Below, one piece after another: positions 2,618-44,075 of a stretch of 64,000 nt of DNA. The DNA comes from Oscillatoriophycideae cyanobacterium NC_groundwater_1537_Pr4_S-0.65um_50_18 (GTDB lineage Bacteria > Cyanobacteriota > Cyanobacteriia > Elainellales > Elainellaceae), in the NCBI GenBank assembly GCA_016208305.1, contig JACQYI010000006.1, positions 310,001 through 374,000 of the forward strand, in the 5' to 3' direction. Both the position numbers and the translations under genes were made by a program. Within the stretch, counting starts at the first letter, position 1, and every line of letters starts with the position of its first letter. Below the pieces are notes generated by a model. The model was not told the origin of the DNA, searched no databases, and saw only the letters and a program-made list of their open reading frames with translations.

Positions 2618-4018
2618 CTATCGCGGAGGGGTCTGTGGTGGCACACTCTGTAGTGGCACACTCTGTTGCGGGGCGCTTTGCTGCGGGGCAGTTTGCTGTG
2701 GGACGTTCGGCTGTGGTGTACTCTGTGGTGCAGTTTGCTGTGGCGCACTCTGTGATGGCACACTCTGGGGTGGCGTACTCTGTGGTAGCGCATTGATGAC
2801 ACAGTTAAGCGTCCGCAAAGTCGCTGTCGCGGCATAGTTGCGCTGGGCTTCGGCATTGGGCACAAAATTGCTGCCGATCTCGTTGTAAGGCGATGCCACA
2901 CCACAGTAGGTAGACATGGCTGTGATTAACGCCGCCCCCCAATGTCCCGAAATATCAGTAAATGTTTGGGGTGCTTGGGTAGAAGGCAGATCGGGGCCAA
3001 GACCTCGCAGCGATCGCCCATATTCGGCTGTGCGGCTCAAGATGGCCATCATCTCGGCGCGAGTAACGGGCTGCGTCGGACGAAAACTGCCGTCTTCATA
3101 GCCGCTGACAATGTTATTGGCTTGGGCAAACTCAATTTTGGCTGCGCTCCATCGGGTCATCTCTACATCCCTGTAGGGAGCCGATGCCGCCGCAGTGGGC
3201 ACATTGATCGTGACGCCTGGAATCAGCTTGAGAGACTCCAATGCCATCGATACGATCTGCTCACGGGTGAGCGATCGCTGAGGGCGGAACGTGCCATCCT
3301 CAAACCCAGCGACAAAACCGAGCTGAACCGCTTGCTGAATCTCTGCGGCATAGACATCACCCCCCACATCTCTGAAGGTGAGAGTCGTAGGCGACGTTGG
3401 AGGTGCCACGGGCTGCGTTCCGGGAGCAGCGATGACATAATCTGGCGGGAACGAGCCTTCATAGGTCAGGTAAATATGTCCGAGGGGGCGATCGTCCAGC
3501 ACGCGTCGAGTAAACCGCCAGCCAGGATTCAGCTTAATTTCAGCAAAATCTGTAGTCAGACCATTGGCATGACCGATGTCAAACTCAGGATTAGTACATT
3601 TCCGGCGATCGGGATTGAAGCAGCCAATGGGGTCGCCCACCAGCACTATATCTTGATTGCGGCGAATGATGCGAACGCTGTAAAACAGCCCCATATCTTG
3701 ACCATTTGCCCGGATAGAGTAGCCGTTGGCATCCAGGCTACGCCCACAAATTCCAGAGAAGTCAAAAGTCCGTAATACCGGGTCAATTACAACAGGCATT
3801 CCACCCAAAACATTCCAGCAGGGGCGAGTGTCGCTGACTTGTTCCACAATGAGCAGTTGATGAGCCGTTCCACCCGAATAGGGAGCGGCGATCGCAATGA
3901 AGCGAGTTTGATCAACCTCCTGCTGTTGAAATGCGGCGGCAAGAGCAGAGGAGGCTGTCCAAGCGGTGCTTAAGGTAGCGAGCGCAACCGCAGTGAGGCG
4001 TTGAAGTAACAGGTTCAT
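2618..4018 (-). CDS. Exported DUF3747/SLH-domain protein
   Basis: About 466 residues from the ATG at 4018, chosen because the next residues (MNLLLQRLTAVALATLS) form a good signal peptide with an AXA-type cut near SSALAAA; the longer frame to 4057 would put a poor segment in front. The N-terminal half (about 25-200) is a DUF3747-type domain with conserved Cys residues (PCWNVLGG, CGRSLDANGYSIR). Two SLH repeats follow (about 215-265 and 280-330), and a third degraded one near FTDISGHWGA. The C-terminal 55 residues are a Gln/Pro/Ser/Val low-complexity tail built on a five-residue period. Periplasmic or outer-envelope, probably peptidoglycan-bound. The role is not known. Confidence 0.8.
   Translation of the reverse strand: MNLLLQRLTAVALATLSTAWTASSALAAAFQQQEVDQTRFIAIAAPYSGGTAHQLLIVEQVSDTRPCWNVLGGMPVVIDPVLRTFDFSGICGRSLDANGYSIRANGQDMGLFYSVRIIRRNQDIVLVGDPIGCFNPDRRKCTNPEFDIGHANGLTTDFAEIKLNPGWRFTRRVLDDRPLGHIYLTYEGSFPPDYVIAAPGTQPVAPPTSPTTLTFRDVGGDVYAAEIQQAVQLGFVAGFEDGTFRPQRSLTREQIVSMALESLKLIPGVTINVPTAAASAPYRDVEMTRWSAAKIEFAQANNIVSGYEDGSFRPTQPVTRAEMMAILSRTAEYGRSLRGLGPDLPSTQAPQTFTDISGHWGAALITAMSTYCGVASPYNEIGSNFVPNAEAQRNYAATATLRTLNCVINALPQSTPPQSVPSQSAPQQTAPQSTPQPNVPQQTAPQQSAPQQSVPLQSVPPQTPPR
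2632..2790 (-). repeat. In-frame 15-bp degenerate repeat coding a Q/P tail
   Basis: About ten degenerate copies of a 15-bp unit encode five-residue blocks of the type P-Q-Q-S-V/A/T at the C-terminus of the DUF3747/SLH protein. Period 15 preserves the frame. The repeat also opens long spurious frames on the other strand. Confidence 0.75.
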
Positions 4019-4108
4019 ACCAACAAAAATTCCAGCGACTTGACAAGCAATAAGCAATCACAACGTTAATCGAGAACCTTCCAGCCTTGAAGCTTAGCGA
4101 TCAGTTTG

Positions 4109-5653
4109 TCAGAAGTCAACCGCTTCAATCAGGTAGACCCCAACGACCGTTCCAGGCGGGCGACGATCGAGGGGCGATCGCTGAACACCCAAATCCATCA
4201 GCACTTCTGGAGGCAAATTTAGAGCATCTGCGTCCGTCGGCAACAGCGATCCGCAGCTATAGGCAGGACTAAACACTTTGATTTCACCCTGCATTTGCTG
4301 CACGAGATCGCGGGCGATCGCCAGACCTAGCCCCGTTCCCGGAATATCAGTCGCAGCCTGTACTCCACGATAGTGGCGCTCAAACAAATGCGCTAGATCT
4401 TGAGGAGGAATACCCGGCCCGTTATCTAGGATAGCGATCGTCTGCCGCTTACCCAATTGAGTCATTGCGGGTTGTGACTCTACCCTCACGCTGACCTTAC
4501 CGTTTGCTGGGGTGTACTTGAGGGCATTGTCTAGCAAATTGCTTAGCACCTCTTGTAGCGCCCGCGAATCCATTTTTACAGGAGGTAAATGCTCAGGAAT
4601 CGCGATGCTTAGCTCTAGCTGACGGTCTTGTGCGATCGCCTTAGCCGACTCCAGCAGAGGACTCAGCACTTCCGCAATCAAACGGGTTTCTAAGCGAATA
4701 GCTCCAATCAGTAGATTGCTTCCCGACGCATGAGTTTTCGAAGCGCTATTCCCCAACCCACTCGCTTCTGAGGTATTACCCTCAGCACCCGCACTGAGCA
4801 AAGGTGGCGCATAGCGCGTCACTTCTGAGTGCAGCGTCTCTGCATTTTCAGACTCAGCCGCGCTGAGCAAGAGCCGCAGATCCGCCTCATCCAGATCAAG
4901 CGCGGCATCAAACTGCTTCAGCAAATCCTGAAGGCGATCGCTCTCTCGCACAATGCCCTCTGCCGCAGTATGGTTGGCATCTTCTGGGCGAATGCGTCTG
5001 GCAAGCAGTTTCCCGAAGGTACGCATCGCAGTCAAAGGATTGCGAAACTGATGCAGTAAATTGTCGAAGAGATCGCGTCGCTGTTCGCGTAACAGCCGCT
5101 GCTGTCGTGAATCTTGCAGCAGCCATTGCGATCGCTGATCGAGCACACAACCCAGCGCCAAAGCCTTAGCAATTTGCTCAATTTGCTCCTGCTCAAGCTC
5201 TGTCCAAGCGCGATCGGCTCTTGCCGTCACCAGCAAACCCATTACCACCTCTTCGTGAATGATGGGCAAAACCACTTGCTGCTGTCGCGAGAGTGCCTGC
5301 TCAGCTGCCTCTAGAGGCCGTGAACCTGCGTAGCTAGAGCCATAATTGCTGTAGCCAGACTCTGGATAGGTCGGCAGCAATGTAAACTGAGGCAAGGTTC
5401 TAGAAGGTTGGAGCGATCGCACTTCAGCATTGCCCCTAGCGCTGCCCCGCGACAGCAGAGAAAAAATTTGCTCCTCACCCCAACCCGCCACAGCTTCGGG
5501 ATAGGCCACCACAGGCACCATTTTTGTATCCGCCACCTCTGTCAATTCTTCAGTCAAGTAAACAATGCTCAGAGCCGCTCCAAGCCCTTGGGTGAGCAAA
5601 GCCACCTGCGACTGACAAAGTGCAACAAATTCGGTACTGGCAGGCATCAACAT
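4109..5653 (-). CDS. GAF-domain sensor histidine kinase (Hik2/CSK-like)
   Basis: 514 residues, no membrane segment, so cytoplasmic. The N-terminal part (about 8-175) is a GAF-type sensor domain. The dimerisation/phosphoacceptor helix has His201 in HQFRNPLTA, followed by the catalytic domain with the N box (LLDNALKY, about 373-380), the G1 box DNGPGIP (410-416) and G2 box GTGLGLA (440-446). Kinase and phosphotransfer sites all look intact. The HQFRNP phosphoacceptor motif and cytosolic GAF layout recall cyanobacterial Hik2 and the plastid sensor kinase CSK, which respond to redox and salt; I am not certain of that orthology. About 50 residues between the two catalytic parts (280-312) are a Ser/Ala-rich insertion. 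No response regulator is adjacent. Confidence 0.85.
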   Translation of the reverse strand: MLMPASTEFVALCQSQVALLTQGLGAALSIVYLTEELTEVADTKMVPVVAYPEAVAGWGEEQIFSLLSRGSARGNAEVRSLQPSRTLPQFTLLPTYPESGYSNYGSSYAGSRPLEAAEQALSRQQQVVLPIIHEEVVMGLLVTARADRAWTELEQEQIEQIAKALALGCVLDQRSQWLLQDSRQQRLLREQRRDLFDNLLHQFRNPLTAMRTFGKLLARRIRPEDANHTAAEGIVRESDRLQDLLKQFDAALDLDEADLRLLLSAAESENAETLHSEVTRYAPPLLSAGAEGNTSEASGLGNSASKTHASGSNLLIGAIRLETRLIAEVLSPLLESAKAIAQDRQLELSIAIPEHLPPVKMDSRALQEVLSNLLDNALKYTPANGKVSVRVESQPAMTQLGKRQTIAILDNGPGIPPQDLAHLFERHYRGVQAATDIPGTGLGLAIARDLVQQMQGEIKVFSPAYSCGSLLPTDADALNLPPEVLMDLGVQRSPLDRRPPGTVVGVYLIEAVDF

Positions 5654-23434: not shown

Positions 23435-24100
23435 ATGCATAGTCAAAATCAGCGATGTTATCCGATTACTTTTTCCGCACATCTTGCTGACTCTACTCCT
23501 CGTTCTGAGGGCAGAGCAGCACAACAGACGCAAATGCCTCAGTGCTCATCTCAAAACAAAGTGGCGATCGACTCTCCGTCCCCTGATTCTCCACCCCCCT
23601 ACTCCCCTGCTCTTGCCCCCTCTCTTGACTGCCCATCTGTCCTGGAAGACGCGGACGCTTCACAAATTTTGGAGTATCTTCAGACTGGGAGTCTGTGGGT
23701 CGTCAATAGCCGTCGGCGCAATGGGCTAATTCTCTGCAAGCCCTTCTATGCTGAGTTTGCGGGGCCAGGAGCCGCAGTAGGGGGGGTCTTTGACCTAGAC
23801 TGCCAAAAGGTGATTCCGGTAGGTAATTTGTCTATGGTTCAGCCTACCTCGCATGAAGCGCGGCATGATGCCTACCTCATTCGCCGCCAGTGGATTCGTT
23901 TAACACAGCAGTTCACCGATCAAACGGTGCCGCTTCAGCGTGCTCAAATGATTCTCAATCAGTTTGAGAACTATTTTGATCAAGATACGATCGCCCGTAT
24001 CCCCGACGAGGCTTTCGCTCTACTCGTTGGCGTATTGCCCTACTCTGTGCGAATGGCAAGACGCCGACCTGGAAAACTCAACGTTAAGGCCAAAGCCTAG
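23435..24100 (+). CDS. Conserved cyanobacterial hypothetical protein
   Basis: 221 residues. The first 70 residues are Ser/Pro-rich and low in complexity; the conserved part starts near ILEYLQTGSLWVVNSRRRNGLILCKPF (written in part) and runs to the end, which is basic (MARRRPGKLNVKAKA). No membrane segment. I do not recognise the function. Its stop overlaps by four bases with the stop of the convergent esterase gene. Confidence 0.65.
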   Translation: MHSQNQRCYPITFSAHLADSTPRSEGRAAQQTQMPQCSSQNKVAIDSPSPDSPPPYSPALAPSLDCPSVLEDADASQILEYLQTGSLWVVNSRRRNGLILCKPFYAEFAGPGAAVGGVFDLDCQKVIPVGNLSMVQPTSHEARHDAYLIRRQWIRLTQQFTDQTVPLQRAQMILNQFENYFDQDTIARIPDEAFALLVGVLPYSVRMARRRPGKLNVKAKA

Positions 24101-24741
24101 CAGGTTTTTAGTTCAGGACAAAAATCCTGAATCGCTTGCCAAATCTCAACCTGAACGTTGCCAAGGGCATGGTCGCTATCCAATTCGACTAGCTTTACCC
24201 AAGGACGCTGAGCCGCGTAGTTACGGCTGGCTTCGATGGAAATAACCTCATCCTGACGCCCATGTAAAATTAGCGTGGGGATCGATCGCTGGAGCTGATT
24301 GTCTTTATATTGAGCCGCATCTGTTGCAAACGTATAGCCAAGCGGCAGCATTTTCTGTTCACCATAGTGATAAACCTGAAGCGATCGCGTTGCCTGCCAC
24401 TGCTGCAGTTGCTCTGAGCCAATCCGAGGCAGCCAATGCGCTAAAAAATCGAACGCAGGTGCCAGCAAGATCAGTCGCTCTACTTGAGCACTCTGTTCAC
24501 CCACCCAGGCCGCCGTCAAACCTCCCAAGCTAGAGCCAATTAGCGTTACAAAGGCATCATTCGGCAACAGCGATCGCGTTTGTTGAATCTGACGGCTCAG
24601 CGTCAAATTAAAGAAATCTCCTTGATTCAAATCGGGTATGACCAGAGCAACCCCGATCGCGCTAAAGCTTTCGCGAAGCTGTTGCGCTTTGACCGATTGA
24701 GGGCTTGAGGCAAAACCATGTAAGTAAGTATAGGTTTTCAT
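24097..24741 (-). CDS. YqiA/YcfP-type alpha/beta hydrolase
   Basis: 214 residues from the ATG at 24741 (MKTYTYLHGFASSPQS), preferred over the longer frame because the family starts with this YLHGF strand. The nucleophile elbow is GSSLGG (Ser in IGSSLGGLTA), the acid is Asp in HGRQDEVI and the base His in DSDHALGN. YqiA-like enzymes are small esterases of unsettled physiological substrate. Catalytic triad complete. Confidence 0.85.
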   Translation of the reverse strand: MKTYTYLHGFASSPQSVKAQQLRESFSAIGVALVIPDLNQGDFFNLTLSRQIQQTRSLLPNDAFVTLIGSSLGGLTAAWVGEQSAQVERLILLAPAFDFLAHWLPRIGSEQLQQWQATRSLQVYHYGEQKMLPLGYTFATDAAQYKDNQLQRSIPTLILHGRQDEVISIEASRNYAAQRPWVKLVELDSDHALGNVQVEIWQAIQDFCPELKTC

Positions 24742-24894
24742 GACATACCGCGTTACGCACCTCAATAGACATACGAAGTAGAAGCTATGCTATACCTCGC
24801 TTTCACTTCATCATAGTTGCCCTCATCGAAATGATGATCAGCACCATATTGCCAGCTGAGTCATGCTGAAGAATAGCGCTCTATTTTTGCAACC

Positions 24895-25335
24895 TTACTT
24901 TTGCAAATGCAGCAGTTCTTCAAGAGCGGCCAAAAGTTTTACCCGAACGGTCAAAATTTCAGCTTGTGAATTGAGGACAAAGTGCCAGGAGACATTGACA
25001 CTGAATAGAGGGGTCTGAACCTTGCCTGCTACCTTGGCCTCTGTATCGCCGTCAAGGGTTTGGAGAGTACCGTGGTTGGGTAAAGCCTTCATGCCTTTTG
25101 CATCTTTCTTCAAGTAGGCTGCGATCGCCTCCTGGCCTACCACAGGGGCTTCAAAGGGAGGATAGAGCTTGCCTGTCTCAGCAAACAAACTTGCAGCTCC
25201 CCGAAAATCTTCAGCGTTGAAGGTGGCAAAGTATTTGACTACTGTAGGGTGAGAAATGCCAGCGATCGCGCCTTCTAGGTTATCACTGGGGCTGCTTTGG
25301 GGACTATTTTTTAGATGAGTTGAAGGGTTGTTCAC
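24895..25335 (-). CDS. OCP C-terminal-domain homologue (CTDH) carotenoid carrier
   Basis: 146 residues of the NTF2/SnoaL fold. From residue 20 on it matches the C-terminal domain of the orange carotenoid protein: KYF at 34-36, LYPPFEAPVVGQEAIAAYL, GKVQTPLFSVNVSWHF (104-119) and LLAALEELL at the end. Tyr35 and Trp117 stand where OCP has the Tyr and Trp that hydrogen-bond the keto-carotenoid (inferred by alignment from memory). CTDH proteins carry canthaxanthin or echinenone and hand it to the N-terminal-domain homologue. The protein has no cysteine at all, unlike the Anabaena CTDH that dimerises by a disulfide. No HCP/OCP gene is near. Confidence 0.85.
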   Translation of the reverse strand: MNNPSTHLKNSPQSSPSDNLEGAIAGISHPTVVKYFATFNAEDFRGAASLFAETGKLYPPFEAPVVGQEAIAAYLKKDAKGMKALPNHGTLQTLDGDTEAKVAGKVQTPLFSVNVSWHFVLNSQAEILTVRVKLLAALEELLHLQK

Positions 25336-25734
25336 GATCGCCTCTCCGCGAAGTAGCCACTAGATCTGGTTCACATAAGTCACCCTAGCAACCTCTGCCC
25401 AGATTTTTCTACATCTCAGGGTATAAACTGCCTGCTAGCTCTCTTCCAGAGGGGGTTGCTTTGCGTCAGCTGTTCTCGCTCTGGTAAATTCGGGCACACT
25501 ATCTTAGTTCCTTCGGATAGGGGATGTGCCTCCTGGCTGTAAAGGCCAGGGGGCTTTATTTTTAGAGCCGCATTTTTTAAAAGCGCTCCTTCCTGGTCGA
25601 ATTGATCCAGGTAAAACCACTCGATCGACTCTATCTCAGGCCAATGTCTGCGCATCGCCCAATTCAGACTCCTATAATAAATTACTGAAAGGGCTGTATG
25701 CCCCGATCGCGATCTTTCTGAGCCTGAGCTATCC
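25336..25734. other. Intergenic region with orphan hairpin before miaB
   Basis: 399 bases between divergent genes. Holds a TATAAA at 25422-25427 that could be a -10 box, and a strong hairpin at 25528-25554. Opposed open frames here (25416-25736) are not convincing as genes. Confidence 0.45.
25528..25554 (+). terminator. Orphan terminator-like hairpin upstream of miaB
   Basis: GCCTCCTGGC and GCCAGGGGGC pair along 10 bp (one G-T) around a 7-base loop, followed by TTTATTTTTA. There is no plus-strand gene before it, so it may end a small RNA or attenuate miaB. Confidence 0.65.
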
Positions 25735-27093
25735 ATGACCCCTTCTCCTCGCCGTTACCACATCACAACCTTCGGCTGCCAGATGAACAAAGCTGACTCT
25801 GAGCGCATGGGAGGAATTTTGGAAGACATGGGTTTTCAGTGGTCAGAAGATCCCAACCAGGCAGATGTCATCCTTTATAACACCTGTACTATTCGCGACA
25901 ATGCTGAGCAAAAGGTGTACTCCTACTTAGGCAGACAGGCTAAGCGCAAGCATGAGCAGCCTGATTTGACGCTGATTGTGGCGGGTTGTGTTGCCCAGCA
26001 AGAAGGCGAGGCATTGCTGCGGCGGGTGCCTGAGCTAGATCTGGTCATGGGGCCACAGCATGCCAATCGGCTACGAGATTTGCTAGAAGAAGTATTTAGC
26101 GGTAATCAGGTCGTTGCTACCGAAGCGATTCAAATCGTTGAAGACATCACCAAACCCCGTCGAGACAGCACCGTTACAGCTTGGGTCAATGTCATCTATG
26201 GCTGCAATGAGCGTTGTACCTACTGCGTTGTGCCCAATGTACGGGGAATAGAGCAATCTCGCACACCCGAAGCCATCCGTTCTGAAATGGAGGTTTTGGG
26301 ACAGCAAGGCTTTAAGGAAGTGACGCTGCTGGGGCAAAATATTGATGCCTATGGGCGCGACCTGCCTGGCTCAACTGCCGATGGCCGCCACCAGCATACG
26401 TTGACTGACCTCCTGTACTTTGTTCATGACGTACCGGGAATCGATCGCCTCCGGTTTGCCACTAGCCACCCGCGCTACTTTACCGAGCGGCTGATTCGAG
26501 CCTGTGCTGAACTGCCCAAAGTCTGCGAGCATTTTCATATTCCGTTTCAGTCGGGTGATAACGAGGTTTTAAAAGCCATGTCGCGTGGCTATACCCGTGA
26601 AAAATACCTGCGCATTATTGACATGGTGCGTCGATATATGCCCGATGCTTCTATCAGCGCTGATGCCATTGTTGGGTTTCCGGGTGAGACTGAAGCCCAA
26701 TTTGAAAACACCTTGAAACTGGTGGAGGCGGTTGGATTTGATCTGCTTAATACTGCGGCCTATTCGCCTCGCCCCGGTACTCCGGCTGCTCTTTGGGAAA
26801 ATCAGCTCAGCGAAGAAGTCAAGAGCGATCGCCTACAACGGCTGAATCATCTCGTATCAACTCAAGCGGCTGAGCGATCGCAGCGGTATTTAGGACGAAT
26901 TGAACAAGTGTTAGTAGAAGATCAGAACCTTAAAGATCCAACGCAGGTGATGGGTCGCACAGGCGGCAACCGTCTGACCTTTTTCGCAGGCGATATTACT
27001 CAACTCAAAGGCCAGATTGTCCCTGTTAAAATCACCACTATTCGCCCGTTTAGTCTCACCGGAGAGCCGATAAACCAGCCCGTCTGCGTTTAG
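25735..27093 (+). CDS. miaB: tRNA-2-methylthio-N6-dimethylallyladenosine synthase
   Basis: 452 residues. MiaB adds a methylthio group to i6A37 in tRNAs reading UNN codons. The N-terminal UPF0004 domain carries Cys15, Cys51 and Cys85 (auxiliary 4Fe-4S cluster), the radical SAM domain has CNERCTYC (Cys157, 161, 164), and the C-terminal part (about 380-450) is the TRAM RNA-binding domain. All cluster ligands are present. The GTG-started DUF6464 gene follows after 51 bases. Confidence 0.95.
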
Positions 27094-41072: not shown

Positions 41073-42161
41073 ATGGCTCAACTCAACGATACAAAAAAAC
41101 TGCGCTCTTTACTACCCAAAGAAGCGTTTAAGCCTGACTCTAGTAAGTTAATTATTCTAGTCATTAATCTTCTGATTTTAATCTTAGGGTGGACGATCGC
41201 CCGCCATTTAGATCAGTGGCCTTTGCACTGGCTATGGCTGTATTTGCCGCTAGCGATCGTGATGGGAAATAGTGTCGTCATTCTATTGTTTTCCACCCAT
41301 GATATGCTGCATGGCAGCGTTATTAAAAACCCTCGCCTTGCCCATTTTATTGGCCTATTAGGGCTGGCTATGCTGTGGATGCCGCCCACGCTTTGGAAGA
41401 TTGTGCATAATCAACTGCACCATACGCAAACCAATGCATTGGACGATCCCGATCGCAGCTATTTGCTCCATCAAAATCAGACGTGGGGGAAGTGGATTCA
41501 AAATCTTGTGGTTCCCTCGGCAGAAGTGAATTCATTCTATCTTCTCTTGGGTATGGCAACCGCTTGGGGAACTCATACGTTTCGTCACCTGACCTCTGTT
41601 TTGCAGTTCAAATTCTCTGGCGTTAGCTTAGGCCCTACCTCTATTGCAGCCAGCGCTAGCAAACGTCGAATGATTGCTGGAGAACTTGCAATCATTGCAT
41701 TGATTCATCTTGGGATTTTAGCCTACCTACAATTTAATTTGTTAAGCATATTTTTAGGCTATTTACTTCCGATTTGGATTGGGTATGCGGGTGTGATGTT
41801 CTATATTTACACCAATCACTTTCTCTGCCCCATGTCGGAGATCAACGACCCTTTCGCCAATAGTCTTTCGATTAAAGTCAACCGATTATTTGACTTGCTT
41901 CATTTAAACTTTTCCTACCATACTGAGCATCATCTCTTCCCCAGTATTAATTCAGATTACTATCCGCTTTTGCGAGAACTCGTGGAAACTCATTATCCCG
42001 ATCGCCTCCATTTGCTCACCGCAGGCGAAGCATGGCGAGGACTGCTCACAACCCCTAGACACTACAAAGATGAGCAGACTCTGACGGATTGGACGGGCGC
42101 TAAATCGGTAGCTTGTCCCTGCATATCCGAGCAGGCGATCGCCTCTCCTCAAGCCAAGTGA
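41073..42161 (+). CDS. Fatty-acid-desaturase-like membrane enzyme
   Basis: 362 residues with four or more membrane helices. Three histidine boxes for a di-iron centre are visible: HDMLH (76-80), HNQLHH (112-117) and HTEHH (283-287). The layout fits the fatty acid desaturase/hydroxylase superfamily, but the boxes are not those of DesA, DesB or DesC types or of CrtR. Substrate unknown (lipid or carotenoid). TGGAG lies seven bases before the ATG. Confidence 0.82.
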   Translation: MAQLNDTKKLRSLLPKEAFKPDSSKLIILVINLLILILGWTIARHLDQWPLHWLWLYLPLAIVMGNSVVILLFSTHDMLHGSVIKNPRLAHFIGLLGLAMLWMPPTLWKIVHNQLHHTQTNALDDPDRSYLLHQNQTWGKWIQNLVVPSAEVNSFYLLLGMATAWGTHTFRHLTSVLQFKFSGVSLGPTSIAASASKRRMIAGELAIIALIHLGILAYLQFNLLSIFLGYLLPIWIGYAGVMFYIYTNHFLCPMSEINDPFANSLSIKVNRLFDLLHLNFSYHTEHHLFPSINSDYYPLLRELVETHYPDRLHLLTAGEAWRGLLTTPRHYKDEQTLTDWTGAKSVACPCISEQAIASPQAK

Positions 42162-42339: not shown

Positions 42340-42500
42340 GTCTTTTGGTTGTTCGGCCATGCTAAGTTAGTCAGGCTCAGAGTCGGGAAAGTCCGGTGAG
42401 ATTCCGGTACTGTGCCGCAACTGTAATGGGACTAGCCCCAGTCAGAATGCCGACTTTGATCTGTTACCTGTTCTCTTGATTTCCCGCGCTGCACGGGGAA
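42340..42500 (+). promoter_or_regulatory. Cobalamin riboswitch upstream of cobG
   Basis: The B12 element core is clear: CGGGAAAGTCCGGTGAGATT, TTCCGGTACTGTGCCGCAACTG and the box AGTCAGAATGCCGACT. At the 3' end TTCCC (42481-42485) can pair with GGGAA (42496-42500), which is part of the cobG ribosome binding region (GGGGAAGGAG, 42495-42504). Binding of adenosylcobalamin should therefore hide the ribosome site: translational repression (inferred). Confidence 0.9.
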
Positions 42501-42512
42501 GGAGCTAACTGC

Positions 42513-44075
42513 TTGCTGTCTCAAACGGACGCTTGTCCTGGCTTATTCTACGCTACACCTGCTCAAGACGGTATCTTGTTTCGCCTTCGCATACCGGGCG
42601 GCATCCTGACGGCTCAGCAATGTGAGGCGATCGCCCTACTCTCTGATCACTATGGTGCGGTGCAAGTCACCAATCGCGCCAATCTACAATTGCGATCGGC
42701 TGAGGCATTGCCAAACACAGTGCTAAATTGCCTCCAGCAGGTAGGTTTGGCTGCGGTCAATGGCAGTACCGATCATCTACGCAACATTATGGCCAGCCCC
42801 ACGGCAGGCATCGATACCGAGGCGCTGATAGATACTCGCCCCTGGGTCGCCCAGTGGAACGACTATCTCGCACACCACTTCAAGCTGGCACCCCTCTCAG
42901 GCAAGTTCAGCGTTGGGTTTGATGGGGGTGAGGCCGTTTCGATTCGCGATCGACCCAACGACATCAGCCTAGTGGCTGTGAAGCGGGATAACGCTATTTA
43001 CTTTCGGCTGCACCTGAGTGGCGGCGATCGCGGCAACCCTCCGCAGCCAGTAAACCTGTGGGTTAAGCCAAAAGACAGTTTACGCCTGCTGGCTGCTTTG
43101 GCAGATCTGTATTGCGATTACACGGTGCAGCGAACCTCCATCCCACCGGATAGTGTCTCTTCTCCCCCGCGCGATCGCCATGTTCGCAGCCCTAAACCCC
43201 GCTTCCGAGAATTCTTGCAGGATCGAGGCATTGCCACTGTGCTTCAGGCAGTTGAGCGGCGGCTGCATCCGGCCTGCGTTCTCACCTGTCCTGCTGCTAA
43301 TGGCGAGATAAGCGACCTTTCCCAGTCGGTTCGCAAATTTAGGTACTTAGGCAGTCATCCCCAACAGCAGCCCGGACTGGCCTATCTGGGCGTTGCCCTA
43401 CCGCTGGGGTGGCAAAAACCCTTCCAAATTAGGGGATTGAGCGCACTGGCAGCAGCCTATGGCGACAGCACCCTGCGGCTCACGCCTTGGCAAAACTTGC
43501 TGATTCCCTATATTCCTCAGCCGCAGCTGGCGATCGTGCAGCAAGGGCTTGAGGCGCTGCAACTCACGGGAGCCAGCGCTTGGGGAGCGATCGTTGCCTG
43601 TGCCGGGACAAGAGGTTGCAAATCCGCCGCCACTGATACCCAAAGTCATGCACTCGCCTTGATAGACCAGCTTCAGCACCGCATTAGCCTCGATCGCCCC
43701 ATCAATATTCACTGGAGCGGCTGCGAAAAATCCTGTGCGCAGCACTACCCTGCCGACATCACGCTTATGGGTCTTCCTGCAACGGAGACTGCCCTCAGAG
43801 ACAATGGGAGCAGGCAGGCAGAGGCGGCGCCCTATGCCGTTTACGTTGGCTCTAATGATGACGCACCCGATCAAGAACTTTTTCAAGAACACAACTTTGA
43901 ACGGCTGCTAAACCTGATCGAACACATGCTGAGAACCTATCAAGATCGGCGAGCAGATGTGGCTGAAACCTTTAGGGCATTTACAACAAGACATTCGCTA
44001 GAGCAGCTCAGACAGCTTTTTAGTTCGCCAAAATTCAGTAGATCGAAAATGAGTTTATATCACGATGAACCTTAG
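42513..44075 (+). CDS. cobG: Precorrin-3B synthase CobG
   Basis: 520 residues, TTG start fixed by GAAGGAG eight bases upstream. A sulfite/nitrite-reductase-like protein: ferredoxin-type halves, siroheme/4Fe-4S Cys motifs seen as ACAGTRGCKSAATD and SGCEKSCAQH. CobG uses O2 to hydroxylate precorrin-3A and start ring contraction in the aerobic B12 pathway. It heads the cob operon behind the riboswitch. A palindromic mini-element begins four bases after the stop. Confidence 0.92.
   Translation: MLSQTDACPGLFYATPAQDGILFRLRIPGGILTAQQCEAIALLSDHYGAVQVTNRANLQLRSAEALPNTVLNCLQQVGLAAVNGSTDHLRNIMASPTAGIDTEALIDTRPWVAQWNDYLAHHFKLAPLSGKFSVGFDGGEAVSIRDRPNDISLVAVKRDNAIYFRLHLSGGDRGNPPQPVNLWVKPKDSLRLLAALADLYCDYTVQRTSIPPDSVSSPPRDRHVRSPKPRFREFLQDRGIATVLQAVERRLHPACVLTCPAANGEISDLSQSVRKFRYLGSHPQQQPGLAYLGVALPLGWQKPFQIRGLSALAAAYGDSTLRLTPWQNLLIPYIPQPQLAIVQQGLEALQLTGASAWGAIVACAGTRGCKSAATDTQSHALALIDQLQHRISLDRPINIHWSGCEKSCAQHYPADITLMGLPATETALRDNGSRQAEAAPYAVYVGSNDDAPDQELFQEHNFERLLNLIEHMLRTYQDRRADVAETFRAFTTRHSLEQLRQLFSSPKFSRSKMSLYHDEP

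Follow-up and report, generated by a model that had tools for sequence, protein, structure and literature searches.

The C-terminal-domain homologues (CTDHs) of the OCP have been split into two clades (PMC6123778), and another study distinguishes CCP1 from CCP2 by the residue at position 103/105, which is Phe in CCP1 and Cys in CCP2 (PMC7512017). The clade 1 CTDH of T. elongatus (TeCTDH), which lacks Cys103, binds carotenoid and is a dimer only when holo, and an Anabaena CTDH carrying the C103F substitution exchanged carotenoid with HCP1 in vitro (PMC6123778). The same source describes carotenoid transfer mediated by CTDHs, in a passage that does not name the CTDH used for each transfer, and states that the inter-monomer disulfide of the Anabaena protein (AnaCTDH, All4940) blocks transfer (PMC6123778). 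In the Tolypothrix CCP2, however, reductant or redox state left the spectrum and the oligomer unaltered (PMC7512017), and the two papers therefore disagree about the role of the disulfide. Relative to OCP, the absence of four residues after position 103 is universal to CTDHs, and in Synechocystis OCP the carotenoid is contacted by Tyr201 and Trp288 (PMC6123778). CTDH1 of Euhalothece binds canthaxanthin (564 nm) but not zeaxanthin, and its gene adjoins hcp (PMC6971039). HCP4 is present in 20% of 690 genomes (PMC12059629), and all4940 was linked to phycobilisomes earlier by a neighbourhood-based predictor (PMC7968678).

In the 64,000-nucleotide stretch of DNA analysed here (the window), a CTDH is encoded on the reverse strand at 24895-25335 by an uninterrupted 146-codon frame with a GTG start; phmmer and an AlphaFold2 model support the assignment. 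A Shine-Dalgarno-like GGAG, read by eye at 25344-25347 on the same strand, sits 9 to 12 nt 5′ of the start, which is a normal spacing. When the protein was compared with solved structures by phmmer, AnaCTDH ranked first (E 1.8e-35) and OCP chains followed (E 5.1e-32 to 3.3e-24); the solved OCP and CTDH chains scored 89 to 125 bits, and the best chain outside these families scored 26.6 bits. Judged from these comparisons, the homology to AnaCTDH and OCP is far above chance level, with 62 of 129 aligned residues identical between the window CTDH and AnaCTDH. The AlphaFold2 model (mean pLDDT 88.8, built from an input alignment of 44 CTDHs) found its best solved match in AnaCTDH 6s5l (Z 23.2, rmsd 1.1, 119 residues aligned), followed by 9r84, whose entry title names a C103F mutant of apo-CTDH (Z 22.4), the OCPs (Z 18-21), and other NTF2-like folds (Z ≤17). 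The C-terminal tail, a CTDH trait required for uptake, is present, with a helix predicted at residues 138-145 and lower confidence for the final residues.

Pfam gave only the names NTF2 and SnoaL for this protein, and Carot_N (PF09150) was absent both from it and from the whole window contig. The Pfam names alone would fit a generic NTF2/SnoaL-like enzyme or binder that carries no carotenoid. That reading is barely credible, because the protein retains the keto-group residues and the CTDH-specific deletion described below, and a SnoaL enzyme is ruled out by the OCP/CTDH scores (125 bits against 26.6). The grouping with SnoaL proteins that the original prediction had named as its refutation did not occur. 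Near the gene, a 221-aa open reading frame (23435-24100, forward strand) matched nothing in Pfam or NCBIfam and is kept beside the CTDH in three genomes of the same genus (L035, L140, and L141).

Tyr35 (codon at 25231-25233, reverse strand) corresponds to AnaCTDH Tyr26 and Synechocystis OCP Tyr201, and Trp117 (24985-24987, reverse strand) corresponds to AnaCTDH Trp109 and Synechocystis OCP Trp288 (PMC6123778). Each of the two is kept in all 111 CTDH rows of our alignment and in all 20 OCP-labelled rows, the latter made up of 19 OCP C-terminal domains (CTDs) and one fused frame (L046) represented by its CTDH-like second domain. The gap between the 103 position and the Trp is 5 residues long in 112 of 112 CTDH rows, AnaCTDH included, and 9 residues long in 19 of the 20 OCP rows; only the L046 OCP-CTDH fusion, measured at its CTDH end, differs. 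The window CTDH thus carries the CTDH-specific four-residue deletion (5 residues against 9). Its residue 110 is Leu, the commonest CTDH state at that place (55 of 111 sampled), where AnaCTDH and all 19 OCP CTDs carry Trp (OCP Trp277). AnaCTDH Cys103 aligns with Phe111 (25003-25005, reverse strand), and no Cys occurs anywhere in the 146 residues. Sequence and alignment thus bear out the proposal of an OCP C-terminal-domain homologue with Tyr35, Trp117, and no cysteine.

With Phe111 at the 103/105 position, the protein has the residue that marks clade 1/CCP1 and, being free of Cys, lacks the one that marks clade 2/CCP2; it is an ordinary member of the already described clade 1 CTDH/CCP1. It resembles TeCTDH and Euhalothece CTDH1, the latter presumably of the same clade, as a stand-alone OCP-CTD homologue with a non-Cys residue at 103 and the keto-group Tyr and Trp, a likeness drawn from published descriptions. 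Unlike Euhalothece CTDH1, it has no adjoining HCP, and the order at its locus is miaB, an RNA-like element, and the CTDH. It shares its fold (Z 23.2) and pocket residues with the clade 2/CCP2 proteins AnaCTDH and Tolypothrix CCP2, but it lacks Cys103 and so can form no inter-monomer disulfide and can have no redox control through one. It is likewise homologous to the OCP CTD, with the same Tyr and Trp and with Phe at the Cys position, but it has no N-terminal domain and is four residues shorter after position 103.

The 111 stand-alone CTDHs comprise the window protein, loci chosen from the top-scoring short-frame matches listed, and relatives. Position 103 is Phe in 90 of them, Cys in 20, and Val in 1, in a sample that, having been selected for similarity to the window protein, leans to the Phe type. 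L033 (the same locus as L035) and a 30-aa fragment in L108 were dropped before counting, and L046 was counted by its CTDH end among the OCPs and not among the 111. More than half of the Phe-type CTDHs (51 of 90) have no cysteine at all in the core, defined as residues 27-146 of the window protein. A Cys-less CTDH is therefore the usual state, and no oddity, within this Phe-leaning sample. Since all 19 OCP CTDs compared also have Phe at position 103, and the L046 fusion has it at its CTDH-like end, Phe is likelier to be the older state. The suggestion of a different clade without a disulfide fits these data, but the clade had already been published as clade 1/CCP1 and its Phe is the commoner residue (90 of 111 sampled).

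In a CTDH tree built with the position-103 column left out, the window CTDH lay among Phe-type CTDHs, beside its own genus, and the Cys rows formed a single group of 20 (19 loci and AnaCTDH) with L067 apart; many of the deep branches were weakly supported. An AU test with the window protein placed inside the Cys group gave p 0.056, just above the 5% rejection level, and so nearly but not formally rejected a redox-regulated Cys-clade (clade 2/CCP2) protein that lost its cysteine recently; L098, which carries Val at position 103 and groups with the Cys clade, also counts in favour of this rival. However, the nearest rows of the window CTDH are all Phe, the Cys rows are one group together with L067, which has an HCP4-like neighbour that clusters with the neighbours of that group, and Phe in 19 of 19 OCP CTDs makes Phe likelier as the old state. 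On the tree placement and the AU test together, we rejected a recent Cys loss inside clade 2, which we regard as highly improbable. L067 itself is a Cys-type CTDH amid Phe-type rows, and we do not claim a convergent Cys gain in it because one single Cys clade is not rejected (AU p 0.42) and the HCP4-like gene beside it falls, as noted, with the Cys-clade ones.

No HCP or OCP gene was found within the 64-kb window, in line with the original claim. The genome assembly is 98.5% complete, with 6.94 Mb in 85 contigs, and its three Carot_N matches all lie on other contigs. They are an OCP on contig C49, adjoined by an FRP gene, and two HCPs, on C40 and C41. The HCP that we call HCPa has as its closest solved chains 5fcx and 5fcy, the red carotenoid protein (202 bits), which we take to be Anabaena HCP1; the HCP1-type protein of the genome is the one on C40. 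The other, HCPb, is about equally distant from four solved chains (84-85 bits). Neither is HCP4-like in an HCP tree, and no HCP4-like gene was found in the genome. A CrtW-like ketolase is also encoded, scoring 297.5 bits, below the NCBIfam cut-off of 350. The description of the gene as being without partners thus holds for the 64 kb but not genome-wide, and with an OCP, an FRP, two HCPs, and a ketolase-like protein elsewhere, the lack of partners ceases to be an oddity. It is probably an effect of the window size combined with local loss of an HCP4-like neighbour.

HCP and OCP neighbours were sought within 1.5 kb of each of the 111 CTDHs. An HCP gene stood directly upstream on the same strand at 42 loci and upstream in divergent orientation at 7; an OCP was upstream at 5 and an HCP downstream at 1. 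Neither was found within 1.5 kb at the remaining 56; at 4 of these, the upstream flank was shorter than 1.5 kb. The HCP tree, from which 3 of the 42 upstream HCPs (L102, L112, and L137) were left out for too short a frame, placed the other 39 with the OCP N-domains and chain 8qx5, which we take to be Anabaena HCP4. The 7 divergent HCPs grouped with HCPa of the window genome (SH-aLRT 98), which suggests a link between HCP1 and CTDH. In these seven loci (L050, L054, L056, L081, L108, L115, and L117), 105-370 bp separate the CTDH from the HCP1-type gene. Scanning named genomes with the single protein yielded one locus only. Among plasmids, tblastn hit 5 records, each below 60% identity; 4 of them are annotated as OCP or OCP N-terminal domain and 1 is unannotated.

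Among individual loci, those in which OCP precedes CTDH on the same strand are L059, L069, L074, L080, and L084. In L046, a 454-aa frame (3077-4439, forward strand) consists of an OCP, a link of about 10 residues, and a complete Phe-type CTDH, all in frame; it occurs in one genome only and may be a sequencing error, and in the other 8 genomes of that family, wherever OCP and CTDH were detected, they are two separate genes. One 99% complete genome of the window's family (G049) has its sole Carot_N match in a 178-aa frame (C212:5819-6262) that is HCP4-like as judged by score alone, and CTDH or OCP-CTD matches were absent from it at E≤1e-10.

We give a probability of roughly 0.82 to the reading that the product of the window gene is a CTDH of clade 1 (Phe-type, CCP1) acting as a soluble carotenoid carrier, with a holo-dimer held by pigment and with HCP1 and/or OCP as likely acceptors. 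Its family, predicted fold, keto-group residues, deletion, Phe at the Cys103 place, gene order, and genome content are established; binding, dimerisation, redox independence, and acceptor are what we infer. Weighing against the reading are Leu at residue 110, the CrtW-like score below its cut-off, the AU result of p 0.056, and the weak deep branches of the tree. The apo-CTDH would pick up a ketocarotenoid, canthaxanthin or echinenone, from the membrane, the pigment having been made with the CrtW-like ketolase. One pigment would be common to two monomers, with a keto ring at each Tyr35/Trp117 pair, and would alone hold the holo-dimer together. The carotenoid would then be handed to an apo-HCP or apo-OCP with no prior disulfide reduction needed; the T. 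elongatus CTDH, itself without Cys, and the C103F mutant are the analogues that make such redox-independent transfer plausible. Because the genome has no HCP4-like gene, the likely acceptors here would be the HCP1-type protein (C40) and the OCP (C49), a choice that leans on gene order in other genomes.

Alternatively, the window CTDH could be a carotenoid store, a scavenger, or a loader of OCP, and not a donor to HCPs. The HCP4-like gene is absent from the window locus, both genomic HCPs are non-HCP4-like, and CTDH lies downstream of OCP in 5 of 111 loci, all of which would suit such a role. On the other hand, the genome does have an HCP1-type gene, and carotenoid exchange with HCP1 has been described in vitro for the C103F CTDH (PMC6123778). 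We consider this alternative unlikely, and we prefer the carrier reading with HCP1 among the acceptors.

The gene neighbouring the CTDH on the other side of the RNA-like element, miaB (25735-27093, forward strand; NCBIfam TIGR01574, 455 bits against a cut-off of 355), served as a syntenic anchor. Of the 111 loci, 11 have it near the CTDH and on the opposite strand. An HCP4-like gene stands between the two in 3 of these (L036, L045, and L078) and is missing from the gap in the remaining 8, among them the window, and the tree of the miaB-linked rows requires at least two changes of HCP presence. Searching window positions 24700-26000 by tblastn with six HCP4/5-like proteins found no HCP4 remnant (best E 0.16), so a remnant in the CTDH-miaB gap was ruled out. 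At 5 of 111 loci (L036, L041, L048, L077, and L105), an apcD-like gene follows 3′ of the CTDH on the same strand at 220-310 bp. The apcD-like query (L173/L176) matched allophycocyanin alpha-B best among solved chains (298 bits, with plain alpha chains at ≤210), and in NCBIfam ApcA fell below its cut-off and the ApcD model was not among the matches listed. Every locus with miaB or apcD nearby belongs to the window's family. We interpret these patterns as erosion of a cassette of miaB, RNA, and HCP4-CTDH-apcD, the direction being taken as loss rather than gain because HCP-CTDH pairs occur widely. Within the genus of the window, the HCP4-like gene between CTDH and miaB has apparently been lost.

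The RNA-like element in this gap (25481-25564, forward strand) is a conserved stretch divergent from the CTDH. Its core is near-invariant (GGGCAYACTA...TTCGGATAGGGG), and it contains a strong terminator-like hairpin at 25528-25554. Ten element sequences gave 15 pairs, 3 of them changed on both sides, a number that 32 of 500 shuffles reach. The covariation score of 0.296 was matched by none of 500 shuffles and falls when the partners are slid, and the fold z-score was -2.85. Since all the double changes are within the terminator stem, this support is mostly for a terminator. With a covariance model, 13 of the 36 genomes searched in the window's family proved to carry the element, as did, class-wide, 8 of 146 genomes (6 of the window's family and 2 weak). 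It is present in 8 of 11 miaB-linked CTDH loci; its absence at E≤1 from the other three (L038, L078, and L105) argues that it is not essential. No Rfam family reached its gathering score, the two matches at E≤10 (17.9 and 17.5 bits) being far below theirs, and the portions of the cyanobacterial small-RNA literature covered by a limited search, that on ApcZ included, do not identify the element, which may be published elsewhere. A scan of 24700-25900 found no sigma-70-type promoter. A 106-aa open reading frame (25416-25736, reverse strand) that overlaps the element was set aside as a gene, with no family matched in Pfam or NCBIfam.

The element also occurs away from the CTDH. In L178, the order is miaB, the element, and apcD, with the CTDH absent, and in L176 and L177 the element is beside apcD, with neither miaB nor CTDH in the 12-13 kb examined. 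Because it persists in some genomes from whose locus HCP4, CTDH, or miaB has gone, the RNA may co-regulate antenna and photoprotection genes, for which the regulation of OCP by ApcZ offers a parallel. Tentatively, and with considerable doubt, the CTDH of this family could be the remnant of an HCP4-CTDH-apcD photoprotection cassette facing an Rfam-unmatched, small-RNA-like gene with such a role, and in the window genus, which is without HCP4, the CTDH may serve HCP1.

Other features of the window lie farther from the CTDH. An AdoCbl-II riboswitch (42370-42460, forward strand, 42 bits) is just 5′ of a 520-aa open reading frame at 42513 that passed the cut-off for CobG (precorrin-3B synthase; 286 bits against 235); the NirA model scored higher than CobG (339 bits) but under its own cut-off. 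A fatty acid desaturase gene (41073-42161, forward strand) had DesB as its best NCBIfam match, at 184 bits and below the cut-off.

The Cys/disulfide form, though well studied, is a minority in our sample and is probably the derived state, which means that disulfide-based redox control cannot be general to CTDHs. The retention of CTDH where the HCP4-like neighbour is absent provides natural material on which acceptor CTDHs serve. The RNA-like element, a side result that is possibly more interesting than the CTDH, would, if transcribed, give a photoprotection locus a small RNA.
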